From positions 1 through 53,559 of the forward strand of contig JAILAI010000265.1 in the NCBI GenBank assembly GCA_024681705.1: 53,559 bases of DNA. Reading direction: 5' to 3'. Positions 15,397-23,944 of the stretch are shown here, piece by piece. How positions within the stretch are numbered: position 1 is the first letter of the stretch; every line of letters begins with the position of its first letter. The notes beneath the pieces are model-generated. The model saw only the letters and a list, made by a program, of their open reading frames with translations. It made no database searches and was not told the origin of the DNA. Position numbers and translations under genes: made by a program. This DNA comes from Prevotella sp. (GTDB lineage Bacteria > Bacteroidota > Bacteroidia > Bacteroidales > Bacteroidaceae).

Positions 15397-15467
15397 TGGG
15401 GTATGGTGTAATGGTAACACTGCAGATTCTGGTCCTGCCTTTCCTGGTTCGAGTCCGGGTACCCCAA
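15397..15467 (+). tRNA. tRNA-Gln (anticodon CTG)
   Basis: TGGGGTA...TACCCCA acceptor stem, T-arm CCTGGTTCGAGTCCGGG, anticodon loop TTCTGGT; 71 nt, CCA not encoded. Confidence 0.92.
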
Positions 15468-15474
15468 CAGAAAT

Positions 15475-15799: not shown

Positions 15800-15831
15800 T
15801 TTGGCATTTTCGTAAAAAAAAACTATCTTTG
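15800..15831 (+). promoter_or_regulatory. Bacteroidetes promoter (-33 TTTG, 19-bp spacer, -7 TATCTTTG) for the SIR2-TIR operon
   Basis: TTTGgcattttcgtaaaaaaaacTATCTTTG, about 45 bp before the start codon. Confidence 0.75.
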
Positions 15832-15876
15832 CGCTTTAGAAAAACAGAATTGTCATATTCAAACTAAAGAGCCAAT

Positions 15877-17187
15877 ATGAAATCGTCAATATTTAAACGT
15901 AAAGGCCGGGAAGACTCTGAGTCGACGCGTCAGTGGGACACGTTGATAACGAAGATAATGGAAGGCAACGTAGTACCTGTTATTGGGCCAGAGTTTATGG
16001 TCGATAGTGAGCGTGGTACTAACCCCCATCAGATACTTATTGACGATTTGGCAGAAGCCTACGAAGTGGAAGGTCATCCTACATCGTTCTCGCAGTTGTT
16101 GTTCGACAAGAATTTCGATGCAGAGGACCGTAAGAACATTTACGTGATGCTTGGTGACGCCTTCGAACAGAAACTCTTTGAACCATCGGCACTTCTCAAA
16201 CGCCTTCTCAGCATTCGTCAGTTCCCCTTTGTCATCACGACTTCGTTTACCCCTGTAGTAGAGGATGCTATGCGGGAAATCTGGGGCAACGAGCTGCGCG
16301 TGATGAAGTTCTCGAACGACCCCGCGCGCAACGACGACATCAAGACACGTCAGGACATCCGCAAGCCCACGGTCTACTACATGTTCGGTCGCGTTTGCCA
16401 CTCGGAGAAGAAGTACGTGGTGACCGACACCGACATGCTGGCCTTCTGCAAGTCGTGGCTCAGTTCGGCCGAGCGTCCGCAGAACCTGGCTTCCGAGCTT
16501 CAGTCGAAATACCTGCTCATTCTGGGAAACAGCTATAGCGACTGGCTGTGCCGCTTCGTGTGGTACAGCATGAAGTCGCGCTTCGAAGCCCAGCCTGTCG
16601 GCATGATGGTCGACCCTGTGGCCGACGACAATCTGTTGCAGTTTATGCGACGCATCGATGCTTTCACTCAGAATAATATGGAAGAAGTGCTCGACAAGAT
16701 GGAGAGCATGATAGAGGCGAGGATGAAGGAAGAGCAGAGTAGTGGTGCGCCGATGAAAGGCGCCGACGTGTTCCTGAGTTATTCACGTAGCGATTCTGAT
16801 GTGGCCAAGCAACTTTACAACACTCTTAAGGCTCGTGGCATGCGTGTGTGGTTCGACCGTGACAGCCTGTCGTATGGTGCCTCTTTCATGGATGAGATTA
16901 TCGCTGCCATCAAGTCGGCTCGCCTGTTTGTGCCCATCATGACGCAGAATATTGAGCGCGAAAAGAACGACTATCACCCTTATCGAACCGAATGGCAGAC
17001 AGCTATCGATATGGCCACAGGCTACGGGCGCAACTTTATCTTCCCCGTCAGTGAACGTAGTTTCGACTTCTATGGAAGCAATGTTCCGCCGCAGTTGCAA
17101 CGTCACAACGCCTTCCTCTACGATCCGCAGCAACCTAGCTTCGAAGAATTTGCCGATCAGATTGCCAATGTGTTGGCAAATCTCTGA
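15877..17187 (+). CDS. SIR2-like + TIR domain fusion protein
   Basis: N-terminal GNVVPVIGPEF..QFPFVITTSFTPVVEDAM..TVYYMFGRV..YLLILGNSYSDWLCRF follows the SIR2_2 layout; C-terminal GADVFLSYSRSDSDVAKQLYNTLKARGMRVWFDRDSLSYGASFMDEIIAAIKSARLFVPIMT..YRTEWQTAIDMA is TIR. Confidence 0.88.
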   Translation: MKSSIFKRKGREDSESTRQWDTLITKIMEGNVVPVIGPEFMVDSERGTNPHQILIDDLAEAYEVEGHPTSFSQLLFDKNFDAEDRKNIYVMLGDAFEQKLFEPSALLKRLLSIRQFPFVITTSFTPVVEDAMREIWGNELRVMKFSNDPARNDDIKTRQDIRKPTVYYMFGRVCHSEKKYVVTDTDMLAFCKSWLSSAERPQNLASELQSKYLLILGNSYSDWLCRFVWYSMKSRFEAQPVGMMVDPVADDNLLQFMRRIDAFTQNNMEEVLDKMESMIEARMKEEQSSGAPMKGADVFLSYSRSDSDVAKQLYNTLKARGMRVWFDRDSLSYGASFMDEIIAAIKSARLFVPIMTQNIEREKNDYHPYRTEWQTAIDMATGYGRNFIFPVSERSFDFYGSNVPPQLQRHNAFLYDPQQPSFEEFADQIANVLANL

Positions 17188-17229
17188 CCCAAACCCATTC
17201 CAAGAACTACGAACAGTGAACCCTGAACT

Positions 17230-20200
17230 ATGAACAACCCATGGAAAGGCCTAGATTCCTATAAGGAGTCTGAGAAAATATACGGTCGCGACGAAGAGAC
17301 CGAGGTGCTCTTCAGTCGCATAGAATACAACGTGCAGACCGTGGTCTACGGACGGTCGGGCATCGGCAAGTCGAGCATCATCAACGCCGGCATCTTCCCC
17401 AAGGCGCGAAGGGCCGGCATGATGCCCGTTAGCATACGCCTCATCCACACGACAGACACGGAGAACCCGAGCGACCCCTATCTGGCGCAGATCAGACGGG
17501 CCATAGAGAGCGAACTGGCGCAGAGCGGCGGCAAGGCCGAGCAGCTGGTGGAGCAATGTGGCACCCACGAGGAGACGCTCTGGGAATATCTGCACCGCTA
17601 TCGCTTCTTCGGAGCCGACGGAATGGTGCTGAAGCCGCTGCTTGTGTTTGACCAGTTCGAGGAGATCTTCACTCTCGAGAAGGACCGGCAGCGCGTTTAC
17701 GACTTCTTCAGCCAGATGGGCGACCTGATCAACGAGGTGCGTCCGCCCTATCTGGAACAGAGCGAAAGAACCACGCAGCAGCCCCTGCCCACGGCAGCCG
17801 GCGGTTCCATCTTCGGCAACATCAAGGGGCGCATGAGGAAGAAAGGGCCGGAATATCTGGAGGAAAGCCTCTTCCACATCGTCTTCACTCTGCGCGAAGA
17901 CTACCTCTCCTATCTGGAACGCAGCACCGCACACATTCCCTCGCTGAAGCTGAACCGCTACAGTCTGCAGCCCATCAACGAGGAACAGGCCGCGGAAATC
18001 ATCATGAAGCCCGTGCCGGGACTGGTGGACAAAGGCGTTGCTGAACTGATTATCCAGAAGGTGACAGGCGAAGCCAACGTCACGATAGACGGCATTCCCA
18101 CGCTGCAGGTGGACTCGGCCATCCTCTCGCTCTACCTGAGCCGACTCTACCTGAAGTGCAGCGAGACGGGAGGAAAGATAACCCGGGAACTGGTGGACCG
18201 CTTCAGCGACAACATCATTCAGGACTTCTACATGGAGAGCATTGCCGGTCTGCCCGACAGCATCGTGGAGTATCTGGAGGACAACCTGCTGAACAACGAC
18301 GGTCGCCGCGAGAACATCTCGGTCTATAATGCCATGCATGTGGGCCATCTCAGTGAGCAACAGCTCGACCTGCTGGCCAGTGAGCGCAAGCTGCTGCGGC
18401 GCTTTGCCTACGGCGGTGACATGCGCATAGAATACATCCACGACATCCTGTGTCCCGTGGTGCAGGAACGGCGCGACTACCGCTCCATGCTGAAGCGGCA
18501 GGAAGCAGAGCGCAACAAGCTGCTCATGGAGGAGAAAAAGAAGCGCGAGGAAATGGAGGAGAAGGCGCGCAGGGAGAAAGAAGAGATGGAGCGGCAGGCC
18601 CAGCGGCTGAAGCGAAAAAACCGGCGCAGGCTGGTGGTGGCGGCATCGGCGGCCATCCTGCTTTTCCTGTTGTGGGCCGGCTATGCGCTGCTCTACCTGG
18701 CCAGCTATAGCGACAGCTACGGCTCATTCACATGGAAAAACGGCTGGCCCGTAGGCGTGGGAAAGAAGCTCGACGGCGACGAGAAGAAGCAGATGGTGGT
18801 GTACTACCGGCTGACGCGCGAGGGAATCTTCAAGCCTGGAACACTGCAACGGACGGAGTTTACGAAGGTGGAGGTGATGAATGCCAAGGGAAAACACACC
18901 ACCAACAAGTTCGTGGCGTCGCCCCTGGTGGCACTCTACGAGAGCGAGGGCGACGACATGAAGGCCCGCGCCTTCGCGCTGATGCAGCAGAAAGTGGCGC
19001 GATGGGAGTACACAGCCGACAACAAAGGCGACCTCACCCGCGAAACGGCATACGACATCGACGGGAATGAGCTCTACGGAATACAGTTCTTCCGCTCGGG
19101 AAACCAGAACATCGTGGACGGGCAGGACGTGGAGACCACCACGGCAGGCGACATGCAGCTGTGGGCCAACTACACCGACTCGGAGGGAAAGGCGATGCGC
19201 GTGCGCGACAATGGCGCCGACCGCATGCGCCTGACCATGAAGAACGGCTTCATCACAGGCTATGCCTTCTTCAGCGAGTCGGGCACGCCTCAGCAGAACG
19301 GAAACCGCGGACAGGGAGTCTATGGCTACAGATACAAGGTGAACGAGGACGGATGCATCACGAAGAAAGTGCCCGTGGACGTGTTCAACGACGATATCAG
19401 CAGTCAGGCCGTCAGCTACACTGCGTTCGACGAATACGGCAGATGGACGAAGTCGTCGGAGGGAACAGCCCGTTACGACGCGAAGATGGTGGTCTACAAC
19501 ATGGGCGCACAGTGCGACACCTTGCGGTTTGACAATGGTGGACGGCTGGTCAGCCGGTCGGCCATGACCGCAGGAAGCCGCTACCAGATATATAGCTACA
19601 ACGATGCACAGGAACTGAACGTCAGAAAGGATTTTACGAAGAAAAACGGCCAATGGCAGTTGGAAGAGAGCATGGAGACGTTCTTCGACCAGAAGACAGG
19701 AAAGAAACAGAAGGTGGTGACCTTCAACAACGATGCCCCCATGAAATACAAGGCCGAAGTGTATGACTACCAGGGACAGAAAACCATTGTAACCTATTAT
19801 GAAGGCAGCACCGCCGAAAAGATAGACCAGCCATCGGAAAAAGACGACAGGAAAGGCGGCTATCACAGGCTCGTGAAGGAGACCGCCACAGAGAAGGACA
19901 TGCAGAAGGAAACGCTGACCTACTACGACAAAGACGGGAAACCCTGCGAGAACAGGGAGTTCTTCAGGCAGGAGACCTTCTACAATGCCGACCAGTATCC
20001 TGTCCGTCGAGTGCTGTACAACAGCGGCGGCATCTATAAGACCGTGCTCTATGAATACGACGAGAACGGGAAGATGGTGGCGCAGTCGGCCATGGGCGTC
20101 GACAACACACCTATACGTTGTTCGCAGTGGGAGATGCAGGGATTCAGCTATTACAAGCTGAAATTCATACAGAATTTCACGGGCTCGAATGTCGCTGTGA

Positions 20201-20658
20201 AGGCCATCAACGAGTTCGGCGACGAGACATGGGTGGTCTATTCCGACGACAACTACAGCTATGTGCGCGAGGTGGTTCCGTCGAAAGAGTTCTTCCATCA
20301 GGACAGTGAGGAGGTCTATGTTCGCGCCGTTCCCATCTATCAGGAGTCGCTCAAACGCATCGAACACAAGAACGCGGTGACCTATATACATATTTTAAAT
20401 AAGGAAGGCACCTACTACAAAGCCACCTCGACAGTGGCAGGCGGACTGCGCGACGGCGACCTGTTGCTGGAAAACCACCAGGCGGGCGAGAACACTGCAG
20501 GAAAAGTGGTCGTGGCGCGCCCCAATCCCAAGGCCAACAACTTCCTCGTCCTCACATTCAATGTCGCGGCCGGCAGCCGTGGGGCTGAGACGTACCCTGT
20601 TTATTACACATACGAAGAAATGAGAAGACTGGAATCATCAATCGGTAAGAAGAAATGA
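17230..20658 (+). CDS. nSTAND-type NTPase with single TM helix and large extracytoplasmic YD-like/PDZ-like region
   Basis: NPWKGLDSYKESEKIYGRDEETEVLFSRI; Walker A GRSGIGKSS; Walker B LLVFDQFEE; charged helix then TM RRLVVAASAAILLFLLWAGYALLYLASY; then YDxxGxx-rich segments and GLRDGDLLLE near the C-terminus. Confidence 0.88.
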   Translation: MNNPWKGLDSYKESEKIYGRDEETEVLFSRIEYNVQTVVYGRSGIGKSSIINAGIFPKARRAGMMPVSIRLIHTTDTENPSDPYLAQIRRAIESELAQSGGKAEQLVEQCGTHEETLWEYLHRYRFFGADGMVLKPLLVFDQFEEIFTLEKDRQRVYDFFSQMGDLINEVRPPYLEQSERTTQQPLPTAAGGSIFGNIKGRMRKKGPEYLEESLFHIVFTLREDYLSYLERSTAHIPSLKLNRYSLQPINEEQAAEIIMKPVPGLVDKGVAELIIQKVTGEANVTIDGIPTLQVDSAILSLYLSRLYLKCSETGGKITRELVDRFSDNIIQDFYMESIAGLPDSIVEYLEDNLLNNDGRRENISVYNAMHVGHLSEQQLDLLASERKLLRRFAYGGDMRIEYIHDILCPVVQERRDYRSMLKRQEAERNKLLMEEKKKREEMEEKARREKEEMERQAQRLKRKNRRRLVVAASAAILLFLLWAGYALLYLASYSDSYGSFTWKNGWPVGVGKKLDGDEKKQMVVYYRLTREGIFKPGTLQRTEFTKVEVMNAKGKHTTNKFVASPLVALYESEGDDMKARAFALMQQKVARWEYTADNKGDLTRETAYDIDGNELYGIQFFRSGNQNIVDGQDVETTTAGDMQLWANYTDSEGKAMRVRDNGADRMRLTMKNGFITGYAFFSESGTPQQNGNRGQGVYGYRYKVNEDGCITKKVPVDVFNDDISSQAVSYTAFDEYGRWTKSSEGTARYDAKMVVYNMGAQCDTLRFDNGGRLVSRSAMTAGSRYQIYSYNDAQELNVRKDFTKKNGQWQLEESMETFFDQKTGKKQKVVTFNNDAPMKYKAEVYDYQGQKTIVTYYEGSTAEKIDQPSEKDDRKGGYHRLVKETATEKDMQKETLTYYDKDGKPCENREFFRQETFYNADQYPVRRVLYNSGGIYKTVLYEYDENGKMVAQSAMGVDNTPIRCSQWEMQGFSYYKLKFIQNFTGSNVAVKAINEFGDETWVVYSDDNYSYVREVVPSKEFFHQDSEEVYVRAVPIYQESLKRIEHKNAVTYIHILNKEGTYYKATSTVAGGLRDGDLLLENHQAGENTAGKVVVARPNPKANNFLVLTFNVAAGSRGAETYPVYYTYEEMRRLESSIGKKK

Positions 20659-23600
20659 AAAGCAAGATAAAAACCCTTCTGCTGGCCGCCATTTTGCTCC
20701 CTTCGGTGGTCTATGCACAGATAGAGAACGACAGTCCGCTGACAAAGCGCGAGGCGAGAAAGGCTGTTGGTGCGCAGCGAGCTGGCTTGTTCGGTTCTGA
20801 CAGCGATAAGAAGCCTGTCAGAAAGAAAGCACCTTCTGCCCGGCCAGTGCAGAAGCAAGGGGACAAGTTCAATGCAATGCGAGACAGTGTACTGCCACAT
20901 GTACAGACAAGAACTTTTCCCGATACAAAAGGATATGACTACCGATACTATGCCCATGTGACAAGGAAGCATGGCTGGTATGTGGGGGTTGGCGAGCCGC
21001 TCACCGAAGAGCATACCAAACATTTGATGTTGTACTATAAGCTATCAAGAAAAGGTAAGAGCGGGCCATGGACAATTCTGCAGGCCATGAACTCTTATGG
21101 AAAACTGAATGAAAGCAACAACGTGCTGCCTTATGTGGACTATTCGAGCCGACAAGCCAAAGACTGGGCTGACGACATCAGCTCCGTGTGTCAATGGGAG
21201 ACCATAGGCGACAATGGCATGGTGCTACAGGAAAACGCTTACGATGAGGAAGGCAGGCTCGTGTATTCGTTTATGCCCACGTCGGTGAGTGACAATCAGA
21301 TTGTCGGTCATTTCGTAGATAAATACGGCATGACAACAACCTTGAGAGACAATGACGACGATTCGCCAAGCTATATTATCATAACGTTAGATAAAAATGG
21401 CTTTGAATCCAGATTCGACTTTGTCGATGAGAGCGGCTACTATAAGCGGGATGCAAGCGGAAATGCGTTTGTCAACGTGAGAAAATATGATGAAAAAGGA
21501 AACGTCATGAGCGACACCTCGTGCGACATCATGGGCAATCCCGTCAACGACAGTTGGGGCAACAGCAGCTGGAAAGCTGAATATGACAAATGGGGAAACA
21601 CCATGTTAGTGGCCTATTTTGATGATAAGGGACAGTTGATGAGACTGCCATCAATAAAGACTTACGATGACGTCTTTATGAAATACTATGAGCGAGACAA
21701 GTGGGGAAGGGAGTTAAAGGAACGGTTTTTCAAGTTCAACGGTGACGGGGAACTGGTGCCAGACACGACCAGCTTGGGTGTTCACTGCCATGTTCATGAA
21801 TACAACGATAAGGGGAAAACGACACTCTATAGGATTGAAGGTCTTGACAAAAATGTGTTGATAAATGATAACTCAGGTGCCGCATTCAGCATCAGGGCCT
21901 ACGATGACGACGGGAATCAGACACTATTCGCTCGATACACAGCCGATTCGCTTTTGGTAAACGACAACGATGATGACTGTATTAGTAGGCACCGCTATGA
22001 AAATGGAATAATTGTAGAGAGCCTCTATTATTCAACCACCAACGGACGCGACTCCGTACTTAATTTCGTGTACACTTCGGACGGAAGGACAAAGATAAGG
22101 AAAAACATCGCAGAGGGCAGGATTAATGTGGAGAAATACGACGATAGAGGCAACCTCACGGAAGACGCGTATTATGACCTAGACATGAATCCGATAGAAA
22201 GAAACGGCTATTCAAAAAAGACTATCAATTATGAATACAGGCCCAAGTGGATGAGAACGGAGGAGAGATATGTGGATGCAGAAAACCATCCGGTTCTCCA
22301 TAATTCATGTAGTGTTCAGGTTATTGTGACGGATTCCGTTTCGAATATGAAGGAAGTCATTTCCTATGATGAGAACATGAAGGTGATAGAGCATAACCGT
22401 TCTCACTATGATGATGCTTTCGAGAAACAGCTGGACTATCAGTGCTTCACGGCTACCGGTGAGCCAGGCCGCACCATGCTTGATGGTGATTTCTTCTACA
22501 AAATAAAAGCTCAGCGAACCATCAAGGGAGGTATTGCGAACACCGTTGCTGTGAACGAGTTCGACGAGCCTTCATATATGATGGGTGGAGACTTGAACGA
22601 TATTAGATATGTCTATTACGACAACGTGCGCTATGATCCTTATTATTATGATGAGAAGGGAGACAGCATCGTAGACCCTAGCGGATTCAAACAACGTCAC
22701 TGCAAGGCATTTTGCGTGGAAATGCTCGATTCCACGGGAGGAGCCTGGAAACAGGGCCTTAGAAGTGGCGATCTGCTGCTGCAATATGGCGAGTGGACGT
22801 ATTACATCTCTAAGCGGTGGAGCGACCTTCATGAAGACTATCTTTGTTTGGCTACCATCAATAATGCTCCACGAATAAAGGAGGTGGTGGTGATGAGGCA
22901 CGATCCAGTGACGCGAACTAGCCGCGTGATACCAATGATGTTCGAAGAGGGTACCCCGCAGCAACTTGGCTTTGTGTATCATAAGATACTAATGACACCA
23001 AGGGAGGAAGAACGATACGACAGTGTGGCAAGGGCTTTCATTGAAGGACAGGGTTTGAGTATACGCGACTATGAATTGTCATATAAACTGTACAACGATT
23101 CTCTTGATGTCTGTGTGTTCAAGCCTTACCTCGTGGACATGAAAAACCAGAATGTGGCATCAAAGGGACTTCTGGAACAGGTTGCCATTGTCGGGGCAAA
23201 GGTGTACAGTGACGGTAAGTCGGCTCTCTATCTGCTGGGTGATACCATATCGCTGCTTGACATGATGAAAAATGGCGAGCGCGATTCGCTCACCATCTAT
23301 TATACCAATGACGGGCGTACTGTAAGGAGCATCACCATGGACGAAGAAGGCATTGCTGCCATGTTTTCTCTGAGTTCTTCTCCCGACAGGCTCTACGGAC
23401 ATCTCCGGGAAATGGCAGCCAAGATAGGCGAGGAGTATGCAGCGTCGGATGAGCCAAAGATGCAGATGGTTGACGTAATGCTGTCGCCACGGGAGGCGAT
23501 GGAAGCTATCGGAATGCTAATGCCAGACCAAGTGGAGCGAAGAAAGAATGGATTCAGCACCGAAGATATGGGTGACCACCCAGTGAAAGGCATCGGCGAC

Positions 23601-23879
23601 TGCATGATGCAACGACAGCAGAAGTATGATTTACCCCTTGAATCAGGCCTTTGCCTAATGAGCATCATCAGCCATATTGATCCAGAGGGTTATGAGTGCT
23701 ATGTAGATGACAACAAGAATAAGATGTTTTATAAGGTGAAGAAGGGAACCATCAAAGAGGTGGCTGTCGTCTGTCGCAGCGGACAAACGGTGTTTGCCAA
23801 TTGCCATATCAAGGCAGACGATTATGAGCCCGACTACCTATTGAAGGCATTCATGTCGTTGCTAAACGAAGATGAATAG
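20655..23879 (+). CDS. Secreted protein homologous to the extracytoplasmic region of the upstream NTPase, with PDZ-like segment
   Basis: Signal peptide MKSKIKTLLLAAILLPSVVYAQ; KHGWYVGVGEPL..LMLYYKLSRKGKSGPWTILQ matches KNGWPVGVGKKL..MVVYYRLTREGIFKPGTLQ of the NTPase; GLRSGDLLLQY; ATGA overlap with upstream gene. Confidence 0.85.
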   Translation: MKSKIKTLLLAAILLPSVVYAQIENDSPLTKREARKAVGAQRAGLFGSDSDKKPVRKKAPSARPVQKQGDKFNAMRDSVLPHVQTRTFPDTKGYDYRYYAHVTRKHGWYVGVGEPLTEEHTKHLMLYYKLSRKGKSGPWTILQAMNSYGKLNESNNVLPYVDYSSRQAKDWADDISSVCQWETIGDNGMVLQENAYDEEGRLVYSFMPTSVSDNQIVGHFVDKYGMTTTLRDNDDDSPSYIIITLDKNGFESRFDFVDESGYYKRDASGNAFVNVRKYDEKGNVMSDTSCDIMGNPVNDSWGNSSWKAEYDKWGNTMLVAYFDDKGQLMRLPSIKTYDDVFMKYYERDKWGRELKERFFKFNGDGELVPDTTSLGVHCHVHEYNDKGKTTLYRIEGLDKNVLINDNSGAAFSIRAYDDDGNQTLFARYTADSLLVNDNDDDCISRHRYENGIIVESLYYSTTNGRDSVLNFVYTSDGRTKIRKNIAEGRINVEKYDDRGNLTEDAYYDLDMNPIERNGYSKKTINYEYRPKWMRTEERYVDAENHPVLHNSCSVQVIVTDSVSNMKEVISYDENMKVIEHNRSHYDDAFEKQLDYQCFTATGEPGRTMLDGDFFYKIKAQRTIKGGIANTVAVNEFDEPSYMMGGDLNDIRYVYYDNVRYDPYYYDEKGDSIVDPSGFKQRHCKAFCVEMLDSTGGAWKQGLRSGDLLLQYGEWTYYISKRWSDLHEDYLCLATINNAPRIKEVVVMRHDPVTRTSRVIPMMFEEGTPQQLGFVYHKILMTPREEERYDSVARAFIEGQGLSIRDYELSYKLYNDSLDVCVFKPYLVDMKNQNVASKGLLEQVAIVGAKVYSDGKSALYLLGDTISLLDMMKNGERDSLTIYYTNDGRTVRSITMDEEGIAAMFSLSSSPDRLYGHLREMAAKIGEEYAASDEPKMQMVDVMLSPREAMEAIGMLMPDQVERRKNGFSTEDMGDHPVKGIGDCMMQRQQKYDLPLESGLCLMSIISHIDPEGYECYVDDNKNKMFYKVKKGTIKEVAVVCRSGQTVFANCHIKADDYEPDYLLKAFMSLLNEDE

Positions 23880-23902
23880 CCCTTTTTCCAACGAAAGGAA
23901 AA

Positions 23903-23944
23903 CGAAAGCCGCTGCCCTTTAATCGGAGAGGGCAGCGGCTTTCG
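23903..23944. terminator. Strong hairpin between convergent operon and DUF349 gene
   Basis: cgaaagccgctgccc tttaatcggaga gggcagcggctttcg. Confidence 0.88.

Follow-up and report, generated by a model that had tools for sequence, protein, structure and literature searches.

The operon and its signals

The window, by which we mean the whole stretch of DNA that was analysed (53,559 nucleotides), comes from a rumen Prevotella-type genome and carries an operon of three genes, all on the + strand, at 15877-23879 (ORF translation and Pfam). The features of the locus are as follows.

15397..15468, + strand: tRNA-Gln (CTG), junction context outside the system (ARAGORN)
15800..15831, + strand: Bacteroides-type promoter, TTTG-N20-TATCTTTG (motif count against shuffles)
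15877..17187, + strand: gene 1, 436 aa, degenerate SIR2-like domain plus TIR domain (Pfam, 79-homologue alignment, AF2, Foldseek)
17230..20658, + strand: gene 2, 1142 aa, nSTAND1 NTPase with TM segment and ectodomain (Pfam, conservation among 82 homologues, AF2, Foldseek)
18631..18699, + strand: TM segment of gene 2, approximate (hydropathy)
20655..23879, + strand: gene 3, 1074 aa, predicted exported partner (Pfam, BLAST, phmmer, locus comparison)
23903..23944, + strand: intrinsic terminator, 18-bp stem followed by a T-rich tail

A first-pass annotation had described three co-directional genes with a promoter upstream of gene 1 and a strong terminator at the end. This layout holds: the ORF coordinates agree, genes 2 and 3 share an ATGA overlap, and the stem and T-rich tail are in place. 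Two distances needed small corrections. The short gap between genes 1 and 2 is 42 nt (17188-17229) rather than 43, and the spacer between the promoter elements, TTTG at 15800-15803 and TATCTTTG at 15824-15831, is 20 nt rather than 19. The promoter motif has 7 matches in the window against 0.72 expected, a count reached in 0/100 shuffles. Long antisense ORFs lie opposite gene 2 at 17251-18441 (- strand, 396 aa) and 18724-20391 (- strand, 555 aa); these are most likely a by-product of the GC3 of gene 2 (0.78) rather than genes.

Gene 1 joins a TIR domain to a degenerate SIR2 fold

The TIR domain of gene 1 spans approximately residues 296-435 (TIR_2, E 4e-18, 66.7 bits against a cut-off of 28; Pfam) and matches AbTIR and SARM1 in the PDB. 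The catalytic-type Glu372 is present in 79/79 aligned homologues. With a TIR fold and a conserved catalytic Glu on helix alpha-C, this domain is a predicted NADase and remains, as first annotated, the candidate effector.

The N-terminal half (approximately residues 14-285; SIR2_2, PF13289, E 3e-9; Pfam) has a SIR2 fold. In Foldseek, the AF2 model of gene 1 (pLDDT 86) places it with the SIR2 domains of ThsA, DSR2, KomC and Avs5, with ThsA the closest. The annotated SIR2-TIR fusion is therefore real, but a second NAD-consuming activity in the SIR2 half is rejected on the catalytic residues. SIR2 NADases carry the Asn of TTN and the His of HG. A profile alignment with KomC and 9v0g set the register; both read TTNYD, and 9v0g also has HG. 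Gene 1 of the window has Ser123 at the Asn site and Phe170 at the His site. Across the 79 homologues, the first site is Ser in 48, Thr in 28, and Val, Asn and Ala in one each, so the catalytic Asn is gone in 78/79, and the second is Phe in 77, Leu in one and Cys in one, with His in 0/79. The His is missing from more distant relatives as well. In Avs5, the SIR2 domain is functional with NG replacing HG, whereas the N110A mutation abolishes function (PMC12931631). Because Avs5 tolerates the loss of the His motif but not that of the Asn, the double loss argues strongly, though not absolutely, that the SIR2 half of gene 1 is not a plausible NADase.

Why keep a SIR2 fold that has lost both residues? 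The conserved pseudo-SIR2 poses the question of whether it is a scaffold, an NAD or ADPR sensor, or a signal receptor. SIR2 proteins of the ThsA, DSR2, KomC and Avs5 types are known as oligomers or filaments, and a scaffold role can therefore reasonably be inferred; a retained ligand pocket is another possibility.

Gene 2 is a membrane nSTAND1 protein with exchangeable sensors

Gene 2 matches nSTAND1 (PF20703; E 2.8e-24, 86.9 bits against a cut-off of 27.1; Pfam) and has an intact P-loop and Walker B motif (GRSGIGKSS at 41-49; DQFEE at 141-145), in line with its annotation as an nSTAND-type NTPase. The Walker A Lys and Walker B Asp are kept in 80/82 homologues, among which E401 and H404-D405 are also conserved. 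A single hydrophobic helix lies at approximately residues 468-490, and because the basic stretch RLKRKNRRR comes just before it, the C-terminus is predicted to be outside. The TM and signal-peptide assignments rest on hydropathy and inspection rather than on a trained predictor. A TM segment at the equivalent place, just after the NTPase/winged-helix region, is found in 74/78 adjacent nSTAND partners, and the topology is thus kept across the family.

The predicted extracytoplasmic part of gene 2 has about 650 residues and is beta-rich and Rhs/teneurin-like. AF2 predicts an all-beta fold for the window-type ectodomain (pLDDT 83), which in Foldseek comes closest among PDB entries to T6SS Rhs cores and teneurins. 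The E-values are significant, but the TM-scores are 0.15-0.23; such low TM-scores suggest similarity at the level of the repeat only. The window-type ectodomain ends in a weakly PDZ-like segment, with PDZ models matching 4/8 fragments taken from the ends of gene 2 ectodomains and the middle of gene 3; these matches had E-values between 6e-4 and 0.09, fell below cut-off throughout and included no fragment of the window.

The sequence after the TM segment falls into several unrelated classes. Among 71 C-termini, 28 are of the window type and 27 belong to a mixed class with WD40, LRR, TPR and multi-TM forms, the remainder being small families and singletons. WD40 C-termini occur in 17/71, and BspA-LRR, TPR and multi-TM forms were also found. 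WD40, LRR and TPR-type C-terminal modules are typical of STAND sensors. The ectodomain is thus present on gene 2 as first noted, though not as a unique feature: it is one of several interchangeable modules. Within the core, only the STAND C-terminus varies, being Rhs/teneurin-like, WD40, BspA-LRR, multi-TM or other.

Gene 3 is a predicted exported partner of one sensor class

Gene 3 begins with a Sec/SPI-type signal, MKSKIKTLLLAAILLPSVVYAQ, by hydropathy and inspection. It has no Pfam match above threshold, only sub-threshold RHS matches, and is Rhs/YD-like with a PDZ-like motif, GLRSGDLLL. BLAST and phmmer comparisons between loci supported its homology to the gene 2 ectodomain, and the annotated signal peptide was likewise recovered. 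Homologues of gene 3 occur at 26/32 loci with window-type sensors versus 0/50 others (Fisher p 5e-16), and at one window-type locus (L017) a gene with an FGE-sulfatase domain takes its place. Gene 3 therefore appears tied to one ectodomain class, as a variable part of the system, and these counts rule out a fixed three-gene unit.

The conserved core is a gene pair

In a survey of the genus, gene 1 was found in 7/150 genomes, and the next gene was an nSTAND in all six non-window genomes. In a survey of the order, gene 1 was found in 16/393 genomes, such that the operon is present in about 4% of the sampled genomes (rumen and gut Bacteroidales), common enough in these bacteria to be studied. Scanning GTDB genomes with a profile turned up 80 loci, mainly in rumen and gut Bacteroidales MAGs. 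Counting 82 loci with that of the window included, an nSTAND gene lies directly downstream of gene 1, on the same strand and with an overlap or short gap, in 78; at L084, one of the four exceptions, the gene 1 ORF is masked and the nSTAND gene is in place. The recurrence that the first-pass annotation had wanted checked for all three genes is seen for genes 1 and 2, which gene 3 joins in one sensor class only, and the conserved system is, as judged from these loci, the gene 1-gene 2 pair. None of the three outcomes that the annotation had named as fatal to it was observed: genes that fail to occur together elsewhere, a gene 2 with no true TM segment, or predicted structures that lack SIR2, TIR or STAND folds.

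Other Bacteroidota classes also keep the pair, as does Paraburkholderia caribensis. On the megaplasmid of P. caribensis MBA4 (NZ_CP012748.1; L157), a SIR2-TIR ORF of 546 aa overlaps by 4 nt an nSTAND gene of 660 aa with a TM segment at 433. This betaproteobacterial version may offer a more tractable experimental host. Copies were also seen in two MAGs labelled Clostridiales/Clostridium (L030, L089), which reflect either transfer or mislabelled Bacteroidales bins. Separately, genome G000 encodes a second TIR-domain protein (G000:C285:13326-13589; L002; L015:7997-10285), with no nSTAND gene after it and another TIR-like gene just upstream.

The operon is an accessory insertion with exchanged parts

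In the window, the operon occupies 8.7 kb at an RsfS/tRNA-Gln/DUF349 junction, flanked by housekeeping genes (CdsA-type, FtsH, RsfS, DUF349 and CorA). A tRNA-Gln is also present in most of the RsfS-DUF349 intergenic regions of relatives that we inspected, and in three relatives (G014, G031, G020) the gap from CorA/DUF349 to RsfS/FtsH is just 321-520 bp and holds the tRNA-Gln. These empty sites, together with the patchy presence of the operon, show that it is an accessory insertion. A prophage or integrase island is rejected for the window: no integrase was noted in the flanks of the operon there, no att-like repeats surround it, and no copies were found in the viral contigs or phage records searched. 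Nor does a defence gene adjoin the operon at this locus.

At a sister locus, L016, the operon sits at the same junction, but roughly 6.5 kb of additional genes separate gene 1 from RsfS/tRNA-Gln (L016:3286-9868), encoding a 189-aa exported protein, a 985-aa beta-helix protein and a DUF4468 protein; the junction is therefore a variable site. Gene 2 of the window (17230-20658) and of L016 (11223-14651) is 98.2% identical in DNA and about 99% in protein, whereas the flanking housekeeping genes are about 88% identical in DNA and gene 3 is 53% identical in DNA and 45% in amino acids. Likewise, dS is 0.07 for gene 2 versus 0.64-0.80 for flanking genes. Identity shifts sharply at the ends of gene 2, and gene 1 is a mosaic between the two loci. 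These contrasts mark a recent exchange of gene 2 and are what the swapping of cassettes beside a diversifying gene 3 would leave behind, with the caveat that both genomes are MAGs. Comparison of other locus pairs likewise usually shows gene 1 and the NTPase part to have diverged less than the ectodomain and gene 3.

RyR genes are enriched beside the operon

The 1.5 Mb of operon flanks contain 28 RyR-domain genes (PF02026), in 23 loci and all on the operon strand, which at L084, where gene 1 is masked, was taken relative to the nSTAND gene. With a background of 16 in 149 Bacteroidales genomes, 0.05 would be expected, an enrichment of about 500-fold. Such genes are found at only 4/32 window-class loci, and the genome that the window comes from (89% complete) yielded none. 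A family of proteins combining TM helices, a Rossmann (RCK-like) region and RyR occurs at 8-9 loci, and in L018 its gene immediately follows the pair. Proteins of this family (L018:13905-16157) have 680-890 aa, with TM helices at the N-terminus, a Rossmann/RCK-like region in the middle and, in several cases, RyR at the C-terminus; homologues lie at L034, L053, L059, L064, L069, L070, L076 and L083. It is possible that they are channels gated by an ADPR signal.

Phage RyR proteins bind and sequester or cleave 2'/3'cADPR (PMC13232231, preprint). Because RyR genes are enriched near the operon and phage RyR proteins act on this molecule, the TIR product may be of the ADPR type, at least in relatives with RyR genes. 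The enrichment could also mark signalling in general rather than defence. PADLOC neighbours, among them TIR, AbiEii, AbiLii and LeoA models, occur at a minority of loci. The raw count is a few PADLOC matches among 149 sampled neighbours, and we do not claim strong defence-island enrichment. A defence-island context is weak at the window, with its housekeeping flanks, and modest among relatives, even though the operon is in its own right an accessory insertion.

Discussion

How might such an operon work? Gene 2 would be a membrane-anchored STAND switch, with its NTPase in the cytoplasm and its variable C-terminal sensor carried through the inner membrane. In the window class, the Rhs/teneurin-like periplasmic sensor would probably pair with exported gene 3, a fast-diversifying co-receptor. 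The trigger would be periplasmic or from the envelope, most likely a component of a phage or other invader. Binding of the trigger would lead to ATP-driven oligomerisation of gene 2, which would gather gene 1, whose degenerate SIR2 would serve in oligomerisation, as an adaptor or in sensing nucleotides. Clustering of the TIR domains would create an active NADase, and loss of NAD, an ADP-ribose-type signal, or both would stop the cell or the invader.

We are highly confident of the architecture, and we favour the whole chain, in which a membrane STAND senses an extracytoplasmic trigger and clusters pseudo-SIR2-TIR proteins for NAD consumption or signalling, as somewhat the better bet. The pair is most naturally read as a membrane STAND that acts through a TIR effector, and the operon probably acts in immunity to phage or envelope attack as an NLR-like alarm. 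The coupling of an envelope sensor to a TIR effector had already been suggested by the first-pass annotation, and the domains, the TM topology and the recurrence of genes 1 and 2 fit it; its SIR2 effector and its three-gene core have fallen away.

A serious contender, although we think it will more often prove wrong than right, is that the TIR domain serves signalling and not suicide, making a cyclic ADP-ribose-type messenger, as in Thoeris, that many relatives would read with RyR or channel-type effectors and the window locus with the degenerate SIR2 itself or an unlinked receptor. The RyR enrichment, confined to the operon strand, the TM-Rossmann-RyR family with its member directly downstream in L018, the action of RyR proteins on 2'/3'cADPR (PMC13232231) and the ThsA-like fold of the SIR2 half all point this way. 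However, the window locus and the genome around it yielded no RyR gene, few window-class loci have one, and RyR proteins could be regulators instead of effectors.

Sensing of nutrients or polymers, or envelope homeostasis with NAD turnover as a stress response and not immunity, is unlikely. It would explain the housekeeping neighbourhood and the lack of phage association in the viral contigs and phage records, and an Rhs-like and PDZ-like ectodomain with a secreted partner would suit a detector of damaged envelope or misfolded proteins. Yet the operon is a patchy accessory insertion beside a tRNA, its site is empty in relatives, its cassettes have been exchanged and its partner gene is hypervariable, all of which fits this reading poorly, and swapping of WD40, LRR and Rhs sensors is typical of conflict systems, not homeostasis. 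Inter-bacterial antagonism, with gene 3 and the gene 2 ectodomain as toxin/immunity-type parts, is very improbable: the top Foldseek matches and sub-threshold RHS matches recall Rhs proteins, but a toxin tip, PAAR, VgrG and an immunity gene are all missing from the locus, for which reason an Rhs toxin cassette is rejected, the signal peptide of gene 3 is ordinary, and the same core bears WD40 or LRR elsewhere. Least probable of all is that the SIR2 half is catalytic through alternative residues, giving gene 1 two NADase domains. Avs5 does show that the His is dispensable in one SIR2 domain, but it fails as N110A (PMC12931631), and nearly all 79 homologues have both sites altered, Asn to Ser/Thr and His to Phe.

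Why would a membrane STAND matter, should our preferred reading of an envelope-triggered TIR effector be right? Most characterised bacterial STAND/NLR sensors are cytoplasmic and recognise phage proteins already made inside the cell. NLR-type sensors (Rhs-like, WD40, LRR) placed across the inner membrane and joined to TIR would extend bacterial innate immunity to detection at the envelope stage. Animal Toll-type receptors have a sensor outside and a TIR inside, and the arrangement here would be a comparable outside-in design built from NLR parts. The RyR association would further tie the system to cADPR signalling.

Comparison with known systems

No named PADLOC or NCBIfam system accounts for the operon, which gave only partial matches, mostly in the TIR region, with NCBIfam scores far below curated cut-offs. 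The open-access literature that we searched, whose silence is weak as evidence, held no account of SIR2-TIR with STAND or of a pseudo-SIR2-TIR and membrane nSTAND pair.

Thoeris consists of a ThsB TIR gene and a separate, signal-gated effector of the ThsA type, for example SIR2-SLOG. The operon is like Thoeris in using TIR and SIR2 folds together, with ThsA the nearest fold to its SIR2 half, and many of its relatives have nearby RyR genes, a family known to act on signals of the Thoeris type. However, TIR and SIR2 are fused here, the SIR2 is degenerate, and control lies with a membrane STAND; the operon has no SLOG or Macro effector, and its PADLOC matches to ThsA/ThsB are partial and weak. 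With Avs it shares a STAND NTPase switch, a variable C-terminal sensor and a predicted NAD-targeting effector. An Avs protein, however, is one cytoplasmic chain in which an N-terminal effector is fused to the STAND, followed by a C-terminal sensor of phage proteins. Avs5 has the order SIR2-nSTAND3-repeats, whereas the operon has nSTAND1, an effector on a separate gene and a non-catalytic SIR2, and its TM helix, between STAND and sensor, is predicted to put the sensor outside the cytoplasm. No Avs match was returned by PADLOC.

Published work outlines nSTAND1/FGS and DGR-diversified STAND conflict systems whose sensors are modular and which contain TIR effectors and domains of the formylglycine type; for some of these systems it proposes sensors in the periplasm (PMC8195603, PMC10907252). 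The operon shares their nSTAND1 and TIR parts, and its relative L017 has an FGE-sulfatase partner. It differs in having a pseudo-SIR2-TIR effector and no recognised EAD/CARD-type adaptor, and an Rhs/PDZ-like ectodomain with an exported paralogue is not described for those systems. KomBC and DSR2 belong to the same SIR2 branch, with a PF13289 match and known oligomeric assemblies; unlike the operon with its degenerate SIR2, they are active NADases with TTN and HG, and have neither TIR nor STAND.

Judged by its genes and residues, the operon is neither Thoeris, for want of a SLOG or Macro effector, nor Avs, given its split genes, TM segment and non-catalytic SIR2. We tentatively suggest, while holding the opposite to be slightly more probable, that it represents an undescribed and widespread class of transmembrane bacterial NLRs, in which a pseudo-SIR2-TIR protein is driven by a periplasm-reading STAND whose ectodomains can be exchanged, each having its own secreted co-receptor that matches it and evolves fast, and RyR proteins control the ADP-ribose signal.
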